Source of the DNA: an uncultured Prevotellaceae bacterium
GTDB lineage: Bacteria; Bacteroidota; Bacteroidia; Bacteroidales; Bacteroidaceae
Assembly: GCA_900316355.1 (NCBI GenBank)
Contig: ONCQ01000014.1
Coordinates: 1 to 56,944, forward strand
DNA: 56,944 nucleotides
Reading direction: 5' to 3'
Below, one piece after another: positions 8,673-50,510 of this stretch. How positions within the stretch are numbered: position 1 is the stretch's first letter; each line of letters starts with the position of its first letter. The translations under genes and the position numbers were made by a program. The notes beneath the pieces were generated by a model. The model was given only the letters and a program-made list of their open reading frames with translations, searched no databases and had not been told where the DNA came from.

Positions 8673-10109
8673 TTATTGTGCTGTAGCTTCGGTGATGCTG
8701 CCGCCTCCGAGAGCCTGATAGAGATCGATGGTGGCCTGGACGGCTTCGAGGTCGTTGCCGATTTGTCCCATCTGAGCGTTCAGGAGGCCCGTCTGTGCTG
8801 TCAACACGTTGAGGTAGTTGACCTGGCGCGAGACGTTGTCCTTGTAGAGGGCTTGTGTGGCCTGTACGGCTTCGGTGAGGGCCGCCACTTGCTGGGTCAT
8901 GAAGCTCTTCTTGGCTTCTGCGGTCTGCAGTGATGCCAACGCGCTGTTGACTTCGTTGCCAGCCGCCACGAGGCTCTGCTGGAAGGCAATCTTGGCTTCC
9001 TCCTGTTTCAGCTTAGCCACCTTCTTCTGCGCACGCAGGCGTCCGTTCTGGAAGATGGGCTGCAGGAGTTGTCCCAGCGCATTCCAGATCCACTGGCCCG
9101 GAGAGAGTTCCAGTGCACCGCCATTGTTGGTGAAGCCCAGCGTGCCGCTGATGGTGAGCGAGGGGAAGAAGTTGGCCGTAGCGCTGTTGACTGCGTAGAA
9201 GGCACTGGCCAGCTGCAGCTCAGCTTGCTTCACATCGGGGCGGTTCTGCAGCAGCGCCAAGGGAATACCTGTCTCGATGACGGCCGGAGCCTGGAAGGAG
9301 GCGAGACTGGTGCGCTCGATGTGATGAGGTGCTTCGCCAAGGATGGTGCAGAGGGCGTTCTCTGTCTGGCGGATGGCATCCTCCAAATCCAGGACGCTGG
9401 CTTCAACACTCAGGCAGTTGGCTTCTGTCTGTGACACAGCAGCCTTGTTGGAGCGACCTGCTTCCATGAGTTTCTTCGTCATCTCTACGCTCTGTCTCCA
9501 GTTCTTAGCGGTCGATTGGCTGAGCGCCATCTGCGCATCGAGGGAACAAAGGGTGTAGTAAAGGTTGGCGATATTGGACACGAGGTTCTGCTGTACAGCC
9601 TGACGCACCGTCTTGCTCTGCTCCAAAGCCACCTGTGCAGACTTCTTGGCGTTGCGCAGGCTGCCAAGGCTTCCGATCTGCCAAGTGGCGGTGAGGGGCA
9701 CGGAATAAAACTTCAGCGGCTTGTTCCAGTCCATCGACGACAGCTGTCCCTGAGGTGCCAGTGAGAGTGACGGGATGTAAGCGAGCTTGGCGACCTTCAG
9801 ATAGGCCTGAGCCTCCTGAATCTGCAGATCGACCTGACGCATGTTAGCGTTCTGTGACAAACCACGCTCGATGAGGGCCTGCAGCGTCGGGTCGGTGAAG
9901 AACTCGCGCCACGCCTTGGCACCCAGGCTCTGCTCGGTGTTGCCCACCTGTGCCGAGCCATAGAGGCCGTCGGTGCGGAGGTCCTCGGGGCGCTCATAGT
10001 TCTTGTAGAGGCCGCAGCCCGTCAGAAGGAAGCAGGCTAATAGAAGACCCACCCCCAAGCCCCTCCCTTGTAGGGAGGGGAGTATATACTTATGCATTTT
10101 GAATGTCAT
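8673..10109 (-). CDS. RND efflux outer-membrane lipoprotein (OprM/NodT/TolC family)
   Basis: 478 residues. Lipobox LLTGC near residue 32, then two outer-membrane-efflux repeats rich in long helices (about 75-260 and 280-470), typical of the OprM branch of TolC channels. It forms the outer-membrane exit duct for the pump and adaptor encoded just upstream. The signal peptide contains PSLQGRGLGVG, which is not natural signal sequence. It is the translation of one end of the GC-rich palindromic element at 10044-10195, whose spacer also supplies the start codon. A second ATG at 10097 (MHKYIL) is an equally good start. The lipoprotein signal still has a hydrophobic core (LLLACFLL) after the insert, so export is probably kept. 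Confidence 0.93.
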   Translation of the reverse strand: MTFKMHKYILPSLQGRGLGVGLLLACFLLTGCGLYKNYERPEDLRTDGLYGSAQVGNTEQSLGAKAWREFFTDPTLQALIERGLSQNANMRQVDLQIQEAQAYLKVAKLAYIPSLSLAPQGQLSSMDWNKPLKFYSVPLTATWQIGSLGSLRNAKKSAQVALEQSKTVRQAVQQNLVSNIANLYYTLCSLDAQMALSQSTAKNWRQSVEMTKKLMEAGRSNKAAVSQTEANCLSVEASVLDLEDAIRQTENALCTILGEAPHHIERTSLASFQAPAVIETGIPLALLQNRPDVKQAELQLASAFYAVNSATANFFPSLTISGTLGFTNNGGALELSPGQWIWNALGQLLQPIFQNGRLRAQKKVAKLKQEEAKIAFQQSLVAAGNEVNSALASLQTAEAKKSFMTQQVAALTEAVQATQALYKDNVSRQVNYLNVLTAQTGLLNAQMGQIGNDLEAVQATIDLYQALGGGSITEATAQ

Positions 10110-10195
10110 AATATATTATAATGTAGATTGATTTTGATAACTATTCTTGAGTGTATTCACTCCCTCCCTACAAGGGAGGGTGAGGGGAGGGTCTT
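10044..10195. repeat. Paired palindromic element A
   Basis: 152 bp bounded by AAGACCC and GGGTCTT. Each end holds the hairpin CCCTCCCT-TGT-AGGGAGGG (in inverted orientation at the right end). The spacer is AT-rich and carries the 5' end of the efflux lipoprotein gene. The right end stops one base before the stop codon of the pump gene. Its right unit (10158-10194) matches element C's left unit (28542-28578) at 36 of 37 positions. Confidence 0.92.
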
Positions 10196-13498: not shown

Positions 13499-13645
13499 TC
13501 TTTTATTCGCAGCAAAGCCGCAGTTTAATGTTTAAAGTTTAATGTTTAAGGAAATGGGCTCTGCCCATAATGTTTAATGTTTATTCGTTTGCCGGAGGTC
13601 GTTAAACATTAAACATTAAACCTTAAACTTCGCGTAAGCGAGATC
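13499..13645. repeat. Inverted pair of 7-base repeat arrays between pump genes
   Basis: 13523-13551 is a run of GTTTAAT/GTTTAAA/GTTTAAG-type heptamers, and 13602-13629 is the inverse (TTAAACA-type) run, so the intergenic RNA can fold into a long AT-rich hairpin. A smaller GGGC-TCT-GCCC hairpin lies between the arms and TCGC-GTAA-GCGA follows. The 13-mer AGCCGCAGTTTAA at 13516 recurs at 50444. Confidence 0.85.
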
Positions 13646-28221: not shown

Positions 28222-29634
28222 TTGCAAACGCCTTATTATCTTGTTGAAGAAGAGAAGCTGCGTCGCAACCTTGCATTAATCAAGGATGTCGCTGACCGCA
28301 GTGGTGCCGAGATTATCTTGGCATTCAAAGCCTTTGCCCTGTGGAAGACCTTTCCCATCTTCCGCGAATATATCAGCCACACCACAGCCTCGTCGCCCGA
28401 TGAAGCACGCCTGGCTTTCGAGGAGTTCGGCAGCCCGGCTCACACCTATAGCCCTGCCTACACGGAGCATGATTTCCCTGAGATCCTTCGCTGCTCCTCG
28501 CACATCACCTTCAACAGCCTCTCGCAGTTCCATCGCTTTGCAGACCCACCCCTCACCCTCCCTTGTAGGGAGGGAGTGGTCACCTGTCAAGACGAGAAAG
28601 ATCTCTCTAAATCTCCTAGTCAGGGGAGACTTGCCGGCGCAGAGACTGCAGATGGGAACAAAGCGGACGCCTGCTCAGAACATTCCTCTCCCTCCCTCAT
28701 AGGGAGGGCGGGGGGTGGGTCTGCTCCTTCCTTCGGCCTGCGTGTGAATCCAGAGTACAGTGAGATAGAGACAGAGCTGTATAACCCCTGTGCTCCCGGT
28801 TCCCGCTTCGGCGTCCTGGCCGAGGACCTCCCGTCGCCCTGCGATTTCCCCGAAACCATCGAAGGTTTTCATATCCATTGCCATTGTGAGAGTGGTGCCG
28901 ACGCTTTCGCGCGCACGCTCGTACATATTATAGATAAGTTCTCGCCATGGTTCCCAAAGCTCAAGTGGATTAACTTCGGTGGCGGACATCTCATGACCCG
29001 CGAGGGCTATGATGTGGAGTTGCTCGTCCGCACACTCCGTGACTTCCATGCCCGTTGGCCCCACTTGAAAATGATCCTTGAACCAGGCTCTGCCTTTGCC
29101 TGGCAGACAGGTCCGCTGGTGTCATCTGTTGTGGATATCGTTGAGAACCACGGCATCAGGACTGCCATCCTTGATGTCAGCTTCACCTGCCACATGCCGG
29201 ACTGTTTGGAGATGCCGTATCATCCAAGCATTAAAGTAAAGTATAAGCCCCTCTCTAACTCCCCCCGTGGGGGGGAGGACTCCGTTACTGCGGAGGAGCA
29301 GGGTGCATACTTTGGGGCAGAACCACTTCCCGTAGAACTAATAACAACTGGTACTGACGCCCTCCCCCCCACGGGGGGAGTCGGAGAGGGGCTTTCTTAC
29401 CGCCTCGGCGGTAACTCTTGCCTTTCAGGCGATTTCATGGGCACATGGCGATTCCCGCATGAACTAAAGGTTGGTGATGAAATCATCTTCGAGGATATGA
29501 TTCACTACACGACAGTAAAGACCACAACGTTCAACGGCGTTCACCATCCCTCCATCGCCATCCGTAGGCTCAACGGCGCTGTTGAACTGCTGCGCGAGTA
29601 CACTTATGAGGATTATCGCGACCGGATGGACTGA
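28222..29634 (+). CDS. nspC: Carboxynorspermidine decarboxylase with two in-frame repeat insertions
   Basis: 470 residues, about 90 longer than usual for NspC (about 380). PLP-binding Lys36 lies in IILAFKAFALW. HIHCHCESGAD, WINFGGGHLMTREGYD, LEPGSAFAWQTG and NSCLSGDFMGTW (catalytic Cys400) complete a fold-type III decarboxylase of the ornithine/carboxynorspermidine group, which makes norspermidine or spermidine. The extra length comes from two palindromic elements: residues about 107-168 (TLPCREG...PSLIGRAGGG) and about 342-391 (SNSPRGGED...LPPTGGVGEG). Both fall in surface loops between conserved blocks, and all catalytic motifs remain. The start is TTG at 28222; no in-frame ATG exists before the conserved region, and a stop lies 15 bases upstream. 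TTAACTCC is repeated twice at 28159. Confidence 0.92.
   Translation: MQTPYYLVEEEKLRRNLALIKDVADRSGAEIILAFKAFALWKTFPIFREYISHTTASSPDEARLAFEEFGSPAHTYSPAYTEHDFPEILRCSSHITFNSLSQFHRFADPPLTLPCREGVVTCQDEKDLSKSPSQGRLAGAETADGNKADACSEHSSPSLIGRAGGGSAPSFGLRVNPEYSEIETELYNPCAPGSRFGVLAEDLPSPCDFPETIEGFHIHCHCESGADAFARTLVHIIDKFSPWFPKLKWINFGGGHLMTREGYDVELLVRTLRDFHARWPHLKMILEPGSAFAWQTGPLVSSVVDIVENHGIRTAILDVSFTCHMPDCLEMPYHPSIKVKYKPLSNSPRGGEDSVTAEEQGAYFGAEPLPVELITTGTDALPPTGGVGEGLSYRLGGNSCLSGDFMGTWRFPHELKVGDEIIFEDMIHYTTVKTTTFNGVHHPSIAIRRLNGAVELLREYTYEDYRDRMD
28540..28724. repeat. Paired palindromic element C (in frame in nspC)
   Basis: 185 bp bounded by GCAGACCCACCC and GGGTGGGTCTGC. The left hairpin is CCCTCCCT-TGT-AGGGAGGG, the right CCCTCCCT-CAT-AGGGAGGG. 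The left unit is a 36/37 match to the right unit of element A, 18 kb away. It is translated in frame as about 62 residues. Confidence 0.93.
29245..29394. repeat. Paired palindromic element D (in frame in nspC)
   Basis: 150 bp with 34-base terminal inverted repeats (29245-29278 and 29361-29394) matching at 32 of 34 positions; they begin AAGCCCCTCTC and contain CCCCCC-GT-GGGGGGG hairpins. The spacer is unrelated to those of elements A-C. It is translated in frame as about 50 residues. Confidence 0.93.
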
Positions 29635-29822: not shown

Positions 29823-29898
<76 letters not shown>

Positions 29899-29935
29899 AC
29901 CCTTGAGCAAATAACGACAACGTCGTACAGAGCCT

Positions 29936-30016
29936 GCCCAGGTGGCGGAATGGTAGACGCGCTCGTTTCAGGTGCGAGTGTTGAGAGACGTGCAGGTTCG
30001 AGTCCTGTTCTGGGCA
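29936..30016 (+). tRNA. tRNA-Leu (anticodon CAG)
   Basis: Acceptor GCCCAGG pairs with TCTGGGC (one G-U), anticodon stem CTCGT/GCGAG with loop TTCAGGT (CAG), a long class II variable arm, and T loop TTCGAGT. CCA is not encoded. Confidence 0.95.
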
Positions 30017-30052
30017 CTGATTCCTGCGATGTTGGTTGTAAAGCTCATTATT

Positions 30053-30136
30053 GGAGAGGTGGCGGAATTGGTAGACGCGCTACTTTGAGGGGGTAGTGTC
30101 GATTATGACGTGGGAGTTCGAGTCTCCTCCTCTTCA
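30053..30136 (+). tRNA. tRNA-Leu (anticodon GAG)
   Basis: Acceptor GGAGAGG pairs with CCTCTTC, anticodon stem CTACT/GGTAG with loop TTGAGGG (GAG), class II variable arm and T loop TTCGAGT. CCA is not encoded. Confidence 0.95.
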
Positions 30137-30163
30137 CTACAGCTGTTCAATGTCAGAACAATG

Positions 30164-30276: not shown

Positions 30277-31485
30277 ATGACAGCTCAACCCATTCCCGTA
30301 CTATTGCTCACCGGCTATCTCGGCAGTGGCAAAACAACACTCCTCAATCGCATCCTCAACAACCGTCGCGGCATTCGCTTTGCGGTGATTGTCAATGATA
30401 TCGGTGAGGTAAACATTGATGCCGACCTTATTGAGAAGGGCGGCGTTGTTGCGCAAAAGGATGATAGCCTTGTGGCCCTGCAGAACGGCTGCATCTGCTG
30501 CACGCTGAAGATGGACCTTGTGGAACAGTTGCGTGACATCACGCGCCAGCAACGCTTCGACTACATCGTCATTGAAGCCAGCGGCATCTGTGAACCGGCA
30601 CCCATCGCACAGACCATTTGCTCGATTCCAACGATGGGTATGGAATACATGCGTGACGGCATCCCCGTGGTCGATTGCATCGCCACGGTTGTAGATGCCC
30701 TTCGCATGCGCGATGAATTCGGCAGCGGCAAGGATCTCCTGCGCCCCAATCTGGATGAGGACGATATCGAGAACCTTGTCATCCAGCAGATAGAATTCTG
30801 TAATCTCATTCTGCTGAACAAAGCCTCTGAGGTGACGCCCCATGAGCTCGGACGCATCCGTGAAATCATCCGTGCGCTGCAGCCCAAGGCTGAAATCATC
30901 GAGTGCGACTACTGCGATGTAGATTTCGATAAGCTCCTCAACACCCACGCCTTCGATTTTGACAAGGTGGCCACCTCGGCCGCTTGGATTGATGAGATTG
31001 AAAATCACCATGGTGATGAGGAGGAAGAAGATGATGATGATGATGACGATGACCACGATCATCACCATCACCATCATCACCACGACCACGACCACGACGA
31101 AGGCGAGGCTGAGGAATATGGTATCGGCACGTTTGTCTATTACCGTCGCGAGCCCCTGAACTTAGGTCTTTTCGATGAATTCGTGGCTCGCCATTGGCCC
31201 GCGTCTATCATTCGTGCCAAGGGCATCTGCTGGTTCTACGGTGAACCCGACACGTGTTATGTCTTTGAGCAAGCTGGCAAACAGGTCACTCTTCGCAATG
31301 CTGGTCAGTGGTATGCCACGATGCCAGCCGATGAATTGGCTGAATTTAAGGCTCAGAATCCCGACTTGCGTCGCGACTGGGATGAACGCTATGGAGACCG
31401 CATGCAAAAACTCGTCTTTATCGGTCAGCATCTCGATCGCGAAGCTATCACGCTCGCCCTCGATATGTGTCTCGCCAAGTCATGA
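30277..31485 (+). CDS. COG0523 (CobW-type) GTPase / metallochaperone with Asp/His-rich insert
   Basis: 402 residues. Walker A GYLGSGKTT (13-21), the family's metal-binding CxCC motif as GCICC (Cys72, 74, 75), a Walker B-like YIVIEASG and a C-terminal CobW domain with FVYYRREPLNLGLFDEFV. The G4 motif is NKAS (180-183) instead of NKxD, which may loosen guanine specificity. Between the domains (about 246-279) lies an acidic run followed by a His-rich stretch (residues 259-272 nearly all His and Asp), a likely Zn, Ni or Co store. COG0523 proteins insert or traffic metals, often under zinc limitation. No Zur-like site was recognised upstream. The stop codon TGA is the first three bases of the octamer repeat array. 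Confidence 0.92.
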   Translation: MTAQPIPVLLLTGYLGSGKTTLLNRILNNRRGIRFAVIVNDIGEVNIDADLIEKGGVVAQKDDSLVALQNGCICCTLKMDLVEQLRDITRQQRFDYIVIEASGICEPAPIAQTICSIPTMGMEYMRDGIPVVDCIATVVDALRMRDEFGSGKDLLRPNLDEDDIENLVIQQIEFCNLILLNKASEVTPHELGRIREIIRALQPKAEIIECDYCDVDFDKLLNTHAFDFDKVATSAAWIDEIENHHGDEEEEDDDDDDDDHDHHHHHHHHDHDHDEGEAEEYGIGTFVYYRREPLNLGLFDEFVARHWPASIIRAKGICWFYGEPDTCYVFEQAGKQVTLRNAGQWYATMPADELAEFKAQNPDLRRDWDERYGDRMQKLVFIGQHLDREAITLALDMCLAKS

Positions 31486-31594
31486 ACTCTTGAACTCTTG
31501 AACTTTTGAACTCTTGAACTTTTGAACTCTTGAACTTTTGAACTCTTGAACTTTTGAACTCTTGAACCCCTTGAACTCTTGAACTCTTGAACCC
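31483..31594. repeat. Fourteen tandem 8-base repeats
   Basis: About 14 units of TGAACTCT alternating with TGAACTTT (one 9-base unit TGAACCCCT near the end; the last unit is TGAACCCA). The array starts exactly at the stop codon of the GTPase gene and ends 10 bases before the ATG of the M6 protease gene, filling the whole intergenic region. Confidence 0.95.
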
Positions 31595-31604
31595 ATTTCT
31601 CTCG

Positions 31605-50436: not shown

Positions 50437-50450
50437 GCGGCGGAGCCGCA

Positions 50451-50510
50451 GTTTAAGGTTTAAGGTTTAAAGTTTAAGGTTGGTTAAGGTTATCGTTAAG
50501 GTTAAGGTTT
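50451..50510. repeat. Tandem GTTTAAG-type repeats before a start codon
   Basis: Units GTTTAAG/GTTTAAA (about four), then degenerate GGTTAAG units, run right up to the ATG at 50511. The array is preceded by AGCCGCAGTTTAA (50444-50456), identical over 13 bases to 13516-13528 between the efflux genes. Confidence 0.88.

Follow-up and report, generated by a model that had tools for sequence, protein, structure and literature searches.

The closest described counterparts of the element presented here are Rickettsia palindromic elements (RPE), which, according to the accessible parts of two reports, are dispersed palindromes of ~100–150 bp found both in frame within unrelated conserved genes and in intergenic DNA, and whose insertion was tolerated in an assayed case (PMC2229807, PMC10969869). 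ERIC, YPAL and the Neisseria 107-bp MITEs are given, in the portion of the text at hand, as short inverted-repeat elements able to fuse in frame to genes (PMC2229807). As for the RAYT (TnpA_REP) transposases, there are TnpA_REP classes with members from Bacteroidetes, as stated in an excerpt of the source (PMC6006769). In turn, the mitochondria of Nematomorpha carry long inverted repeats in coding sequence, which the available passages report as gained and lost between species (PMC6649704). For Prevotella/Bacteroidales no description of such elements was found, most subscription journals being outside the scope of our literature search.

Here we analyze a palindromic element (element C) in the carboxynorspermidine decarboxylase gene (nspC) of an uncultured Prevotellaceae bacterium; the window referred to below is the whole stretch of DNA that was analyzed, 56,944 nucleotides long. 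Element C is very probably one copy of a dispersed GC-rich palindromic family of a Prevotellaceae-type genus, which lies in frame and is expected to be translated as a disordered loop on the surface of a functional NspC. Short GC-rich palindromic repeats would have colonized this genus of gut-type bacterium, and the copies inside genes would persist where they are in frame and stop-free.

The nspC gene carries two palindromic inserts

The nspC ORF occupies positions 28222..29634 of the plus strand and encodes 470 amino acids from a TTG start. It scores 465.2 bits against TIGR01047 (cut-off 409.05), with the match broken into three stretches that flank two in-frame palindromic inserts. The solved NspC-type chains matching the product (36gy, 9eaf, 3n29, 3mt1) also align in three stretches each, and in the two solved-chain alignments that were inspected the gaps coincide with the inserts. 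This bears out the preliminary description of an element carried in frame; the conserved NspC blocks are untouched. By their titles, the relatives of nspC fall in Prevotellaceae/Bacteroidaceae/Prevotella.

Element C, the first insert, belongs to family 1 and spans 28540..28724 on the plus strand (185 bp; approximately residues 107–168 of NspC). Its left arm (28540..28579, plus strand) contains a hairpin of its own, CCTCCCTTGTAGGGAGG, at 28557–28573, and its right arm (28685..28724, minus strand) another at 28691–28707. The arms, of 40 nt each, are 85% complementary and separated by 105 nt; the inverted unit with a hairpin at each end reported earlier was thus recovered, and terminal inverted repeats, a MITE criterion, are present. 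The spacer contains a hairpin of a third family (CTCTAAATCTCC..GGGGAGACTT; 28600..28633, plus strand) that also has copies elsewhere, with near copies in loci L185 and L195 and partial ones in L207, L213, L218 and L222. At least two families thus make up element C. RNA of the region 28530–28734 has a predicted folding energy of -105.3 kcal/mol (z = -6.85), and none of 200 shuffled sequences was equally stable.

The second insert (29245..29394, plus strand) consists of inverted copies of a family-2 unit (AAGCCCCTCTCTAACTCCCCCCGTGGGGGGGAGG), the arms being 34 nt long and 94% complementary. The family-2 hairpin has 24 matches genome-wide at ≤2 mismatches, against 0 for the control.

Since element C is in frame and stop-free, it should be translated as part of NspC. 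The AlphaFold model of NspC, built on a 59-row alignment (A1; 59/108 usable sequences), has a mean pLDDT of 77.6 and retains the fold of NspC (the Foldseek TM, normalized by target length, is 0.86 to 9eaf and 0.83 to 3n29), while residues 114–165 have a pLDDT below 50. The insert would form a disordered surface loop and NspC would keep working; element C is presumably translated and harmless.

Several other features were observed in the window. Genes for tRNA-Gly(gcc), tRNA-Leu(cag) and tRNA-Leu(gag) are located downstream of nspC (29823–30137), an 8-bp tandem repeat (AACTCTTG/AACTTTTG) with 13 register copies lies at a gene end (31461–31600), and AT-rich inverted repeats (GTTTAATGTTTAAAG) are common to two distant sites (13509–13632 and 50437–50479).

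Variation of the NspC loops and age of element C

We compared the nspC locus with 80 named loci retained from 592 relatives found; at least three of the 80 (L061, L062, L063) repeat same-genus loci. The loop that harbors element C (loop 1) is 65 aa long in the window, vs. 9–24 aa across the named loci. Element C is present in 0 of the 80, L062 (same sequence as genome G010) having a short arm-like piece there (19 aa). The orthologue comparison, which the preliminary description had named as a possible refuter, therefore favors its reading. Of its size estimate, the stretch of ~62 residues (107–168) holds, whereas a net gain of 62 does not, since loop 1 is longer by 41–56 residues relative to the 80 named loci.

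Within the same genus, an NspC match was found in 125 of 139 genomes and 30 loci were fetched, including the truncated L157 and L169. Here loop 1 ranges from 7 to 76 aa with mostly unrelated contents, and element C occurs in one other genome alone, G132. The other fillings include tandem repeats (G035 = L146, G023 = L147), minisatellite-like peptides (G094, G108), the short arm-like piece (G010) and short native-like loops. Element C is not ancestral in nspC, given the length of its loop and its sharing with G132 only, and loop 1 has the appearance of a hot spot for insertions in general. In L146, L147, L159, L161 and L163 it was seen to contain tandem repeats or minisatellite-like peptides. 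Loop 2, the site of the family-2 insert, is variable among same-genus loci like loop 1; it holds a related family-2 unit in G088 (identical at 84% of the DNA positions that align) and a family-1-like unit in G138.

The unit is identical between the window and G132 at 191/195 bases, vs. 81–83% for the flanking gene, and is therefore younger than its flanks in these two genomes; its arrival, or its exchange, postdates the divergence of the host genes. Codon comparison gives the same contrast, with 4/65 codons differing in element C and 162/348 in the flanking nspC (Fisher p = 3.6e-11). The insert shows few changes and no synonymous bias: the ratio of synonymous to non-synonymous changes is 1:3 in the loop and 135:27 in the flanks (p = 0.019). 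G094 is closer to the window than G132 in two of the three flanking segments (89 and 87% vs. 83 and 81%; the last 80 vs. 81%), and its loop 1 is 22 aa long and of other content. Window–G132 identity is also high in the two 30-bp steps immediately upstream of element C (28/30 and 29/30; 57/60), and falls directly after the insert. The near-identity of element C at one site in these genomes could reflect short-tract recombination instead of transposition.

All sequences compared are MAGs, and the genome under study is in 69 contigs and 91% complete, which leaves room for an assembly or binning artefact. We regard this as extremely improbable, as the nspC gene of G132 also contains element C, and pairs at uvrA, sdh and two junctions of locus L192 recur in other genomes.

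Copy number and dispersal

The hairpin pattern has 8 matches in the window at ≤3 mismatches (4 sites, on both strands each), compared with 0.02 expected from shuffles. In the 3.16-Mb genome, the core hairpin CCTCCCTNNNAGGGAGG has 72 exact copies and 125 with ≤1 mismatch, per strand, while the reversed-pattern control has 0; the dispersed mobile-like character ascribed to the element was thereby supported. A BLAST search of element C against its own genome gave at least 100 matches. Across the genus, 89 of 139 genomes contain at least one exact core hairpin, the number per genome ranging from 0 to 170. The element family presumably spreads as a selfish element. Spread by phages was considered with one exact family-1 pattern, which had 0 matches in viral_contigs, and was set aside.

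Element A (10045..10194, minus strand) is a family-1 pair, one arm of which adjoins the stop of the upstream gene, while the other is readable in frame downstream. This second arm can be read as part of the N-terminus of the next gene, which lies on the minus strand and starts with ATG at 10109: MTFKMHKY[ILPSLQGRGLGVG]LLLACFLLTGC. As claimed earlier, the left arm of element C matches element A in inverted orientation at 36/37 bases (28542–28578 vs. 10158–10194; 97%). The 37-mer, whose uniqueness had been named as a further refuter, recurs in the genome.

Paired arms inside genes and at gene junctions

The arrangement of arms was surveyed by profile search in 309 kb of the 3.16 Mb, fetched around the matches listed, with genes called by a simple in-house caller. 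An arm score of ≥14 gave 42 pairs and of ≥18 gave 40; at the latter threshold, the 309 kb contain 119 non-overlapping arms. Neighboring arms ≤400 bp apart are ordered as (+,-) in 40 cases and (-,-) in 1, with 0 in other orders. The inner distance of the pairs is 37–166 bp and their span ~100–240 bp.

Fourteen of the 40 pairs in the 309 kb are contained in called genes, whose frame stays open through them. As this class is defined by the open frame, it is by itself no demonstration of selection, and the informative test is whether the remaining pairs split genes. By eye, at the termini of the flanking genes, no gene split by a junction pair was noticed; besides, each of ten junction-flanking proteins scanned matched a different family from its neighbor (SdhB/SdhA/SdhC, EtfA/EtfB, TrpS/MutL, GcvH/GcvPA, and IlvN alone; EtfB over 178/260 model positions). 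Frame-breaking insertions are presumably removed by selection, and frame-broken copies may lie outside the 309 kb read. Ten host proteins were scanned against NCBIfam. They include UvrA (TIGR00630 above cut-off), CTP synthase and histidyl-tRNA synthetase (single arm), while two beta-galactosidase types and M16-peptidase-like, RapZ-like and mutarotase-like hosts fall below the cut-offs; the mutarotase-like host also matches sodium/solute symporter above cut-off. The hosts in L195 and L199 have no NCBIfam match at 1e-10, L195 matching DPP-IV-type chains.

Family-1 arms are open in both orientations and several frames, with five orientation-by-frame combinations seen in 46 arms (score ≥25, exact TCCCT...AGGGA, lax start rule). 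The thing shared is therefore the DNA and not one peptide. This bears on the notion that the insert is skipped, by RNA-level removal or byps-like ribosome bypassing, so that NspC would be of normal length. The very strong RNA stem (-105 kcal/mol) would suit such skipping, and a precedent in yeast mitochondria is mentioned in the accessible part of one source (PMC6649704). However, skipping would not require open frames, and yet the 14 intragenic pairs are open and no split junction gene was noticed; the five orientation-by-frame combinations of the arms also speak against it, and we consider it very improbable. Translation of the insert remains our preferred reading.

The other 26 pairs are located at gene junctions, and 21 of them have an in-frame start between the two arms; the arm on the side of the downstream gene is then readable as N-terminal residues of that gene. 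The arm may follow a signal-peptide-like stretch (MKKFSVIVSTFLIAATLMAQ[VTTPLPADREGLGES]PDPVV) or only a few codons (MSTPSQKL[STPLPTREGQGGGS]AFKYFPHTEED); predicted arm-encoded N-terminal tails include TPLPTREGQGGGS. The true start is uncertain at a few junctions, e.g., L175 and L196. Five junction pairs have no in-frame start (L173 first pair, L174 twice, L177 and L210). Among the 25 junction pairs with a co-directional upstream gene, the upstream stop lies ≤10 nt from the other arm in 15.

Such placement could reflect domestication of the paired arms as an mRNA device, in which the stem encloses the downstream start by the upstream stop and serves translational coupling. The in-frame starts at 21/26 junctions, the stops near the other arm at 15/25 and the co-directionality of 25/26 junctions all agree with this. 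Yet, 106 of 135 element-free junctions in the same loci are already co-directional (p = 0.05), and we did not retain the bias as a distinguishing feature. Moreover, 14 pairs are wholly intragenic and presence varies between close relatives; overall, an mRNA device appears improbable.

Arms of the same pair resemble each other in family 1 (35 pairs; similarity 0.665 vs. 0.52 for shuffled pairs, 0/5000), while the five family-2 pairs show the opposite direction (5000/5000). Template-switch copying of one arm was rejected, because it would also give (-,+) pairs, of which none were seen, and family 2 opposes it.

Native and non-native interiors of the pairs

The interiors of 12 pairs were compared with relatives or solved homologues. 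In five of them (UvrA twice, CTP synthase and two L192 junctions) the DNA or protein between the arms is native. At UvrA site A, the segment GIWRIEDY...LLIDRLSV between the arms has counterparts in armless relatives, and the arms sit at two turns ~40 codons apart, whereas at site B they flank SHTLQWLLG (30 genomes, by eye, for both sites). In CTP synthase, the arms flank GTMRLGAYEC, and those in the GH2 enzyme of L212 probably bracket native sequence likewise. Some genomes have a single arm at UvrA site A, e.g., G132 the left and G114 the right one (by eye); single arms are thus also lost or gained separately.

The first L192 junction, whose upstream gene we take to be GuaB-like, has both arms in the own genome and G094 but none in G077, G108, G060, G010, G035 and G088; around the start codon, the inter-arm DNA of G094 agrees with the empty site of G010. 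The second junction carries a complete pair in the own genome and in G094, a single arm in G108 and in G010, and degenerate remains in G077 and G060; G035 and G088 have none, and its start region resembles that of G088. In the G094 orthologue of this second junction (L290, orthologous to L192 6498–6660), the left arm occurs in ~4 tandem copies. As for mutL-trpS, the pair is complete in the own genome, G094 and G035, while G108, G010, G060, G077 and G088 have neither arm; its interior was classed neither as native nor as non-native.

In turn, the interior is non-native in another five of the 12 pairs: both nspC inserts, L195 and two sdh junctions. The sdhA-sdhB site is 5 nt long where empty (G077), filled in G094, G088, G060 and G138, and occupied by a diverged pair in G082 and by other long sequence in G092 and G114. 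The sdhC-sdhA copy has G132 as its sole carrier among 11 relatives read. The two sdh copies share a 75-bp spacer at ~93%, which indicates that arm-spacer-arm moved as one unit there. A spacer conserved across the family was rejected, since the sdhA-sdhB spacer fully matched only itself and the sdhC-sdhA copy, the others being short pieces.

With native interior in some pairs and an own spacer in others, two modes seem to coexist, i.e., spacer-carrying units and arm pairs around native DNA. In the bracketing mode, inverted arms would co-insert 37–166 bp apart around native DNA and then be translated, an account we hold tentatively and at somewhat less than even chances. The arms would be placed after a stop and after the start or signal peptide of the next gene, or in two loops of one protein. 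Filled and empty junctions show no clear target-site duplication (by eye; the sites have diverged). To our knowledge, no mechanism for bracketing insertion has been described, and bracketing, should it prove real, would point to an undescribed way of inserting repeats.

A candidate transposase

The arrangement could also be that of a REPIN mobilized by a genome-encoded RAYT (TnpA_REP) transposase. The inverted hairpin pairs fit this, as does the arm-spacer-arm unit of the sdh copies, and the own genome has two weak Y1_Tnp ORFs with what we take to be DHVH and Y..NPRR motifs. At ~0.8 kb from one of these ORFs, the neighboring gene contains a family-2-like arm (18.3 bits). Across the genus, the hairpin median is 8 in the 62 genomes with a PF01797 match vs. 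2 in the 77 without (p = 0.015), and ≥20 copies occur in 26/62 vs. 12/77, both comparisons being uncorrected, the former for relatedness and completeness. However, no strong family-1 or family-2 arm was found in 13 kb around either ORF, a profile check giving one weak family-1 match (12.9 bits) 3–4 kb from the other ORF, and one of the ORFs has its own, different AT-rich palindromes upstream. G010, G011, G022, G023 and G030 have 43–75 hairpins and no PF01797 match (incomplete MAGs), while G043, G055 and G120 have 2–4 PF01797 matches but lack an exact hairpin. Apart from the sdh copies, the spacers are unrelated to each other, and those of five pairs are native. With two ORFs found, a weak correlation and no strong adjoining arm, we did not adopt RAYT as the mobilizer and regard it as unlikely.

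The Y1-transposase-like ORFs themselves (L171 and L172; G000:C34:62343-62498 and C44:7851-8000) encode 444 and 396 aa, with long low-complexity tandem-repeat expansions in the middle of the protein. The AT-rich palindromes upstream of the first are of the type TTTTGCCAC..TGGCAAA. The ORF beside the second, presumably MutS2-like (L172, + frame 0, from codon 788), carries an in-frame palindromic element, PPSPLPREGEG...TPLPHGRGQGVG, which is the 18.3-bit match to the family-2 profile (L255 7564–7601).

Comparison with known systems

Filled and empty sites in related genomes make the absorption of selfish DNA by proteins testable. When these bacteria are annotated, such inserts can also reduce the scores of family matches and displace the called starts.

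Like REP/REPIN-BIME, the family forms inverted pairs of short dispersed hairpin units (40 (+,-) vs. 1 (-,-)). Unlike them, it is often not extragenic, with 14/40 pairs intragenic and 21 more having an arm readable as N-terminal residues, and its spacers are mostly unrelated and some native. The REPIN-like architecture suggested initially thus stands in its geometry of two inverted hairpin units, while membership fails on extragenic location. With ERIC, YPAL and the Neisseria 107-bp MITEs the family shares a short inverted-repeat element fused in frame, though no clear target-site duplication was seen here (diverged sites, by eye), nor a parent insertion sequence in a transposase search that covered Y1_Tnp. 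Nematomorpha coding palindromes are similar in that inverted repeats lie within coding sequence and their presence varies between relatives, but they are described, in the part of the source at hand, as perfect and mitochondrial (PMC6649704), whereas here they are copies of a dispersed GC-rich family. Wolbachia coding palindromes offer a further comparison, as far as the title of a report cited in the RPE sources goes.

Resemblance to RPE concerns a dispersed palindrome of the ~100–150 bp class (pairs here ~100–240 bp) in many copies, in frame and stop-free in unrelated conserved genes, as seen for 14/40 pairs and in the NspC and UvrA orthologue alignments. The differences are that the family described here belongs to another phylum, has GC-rich arms with hairpins of their own that are read in several frames and both orientations, and forms some pairs that bracket native DNA or a downstream start. 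We suggest that the element family works like RPE, by which we mean a likeness of behavior and claim no membership; this would add, beyond Rickettsia and Wolbachia, a genus with palindromic repeats recurring in the core genes UvrA, CTP synthase and NspC.
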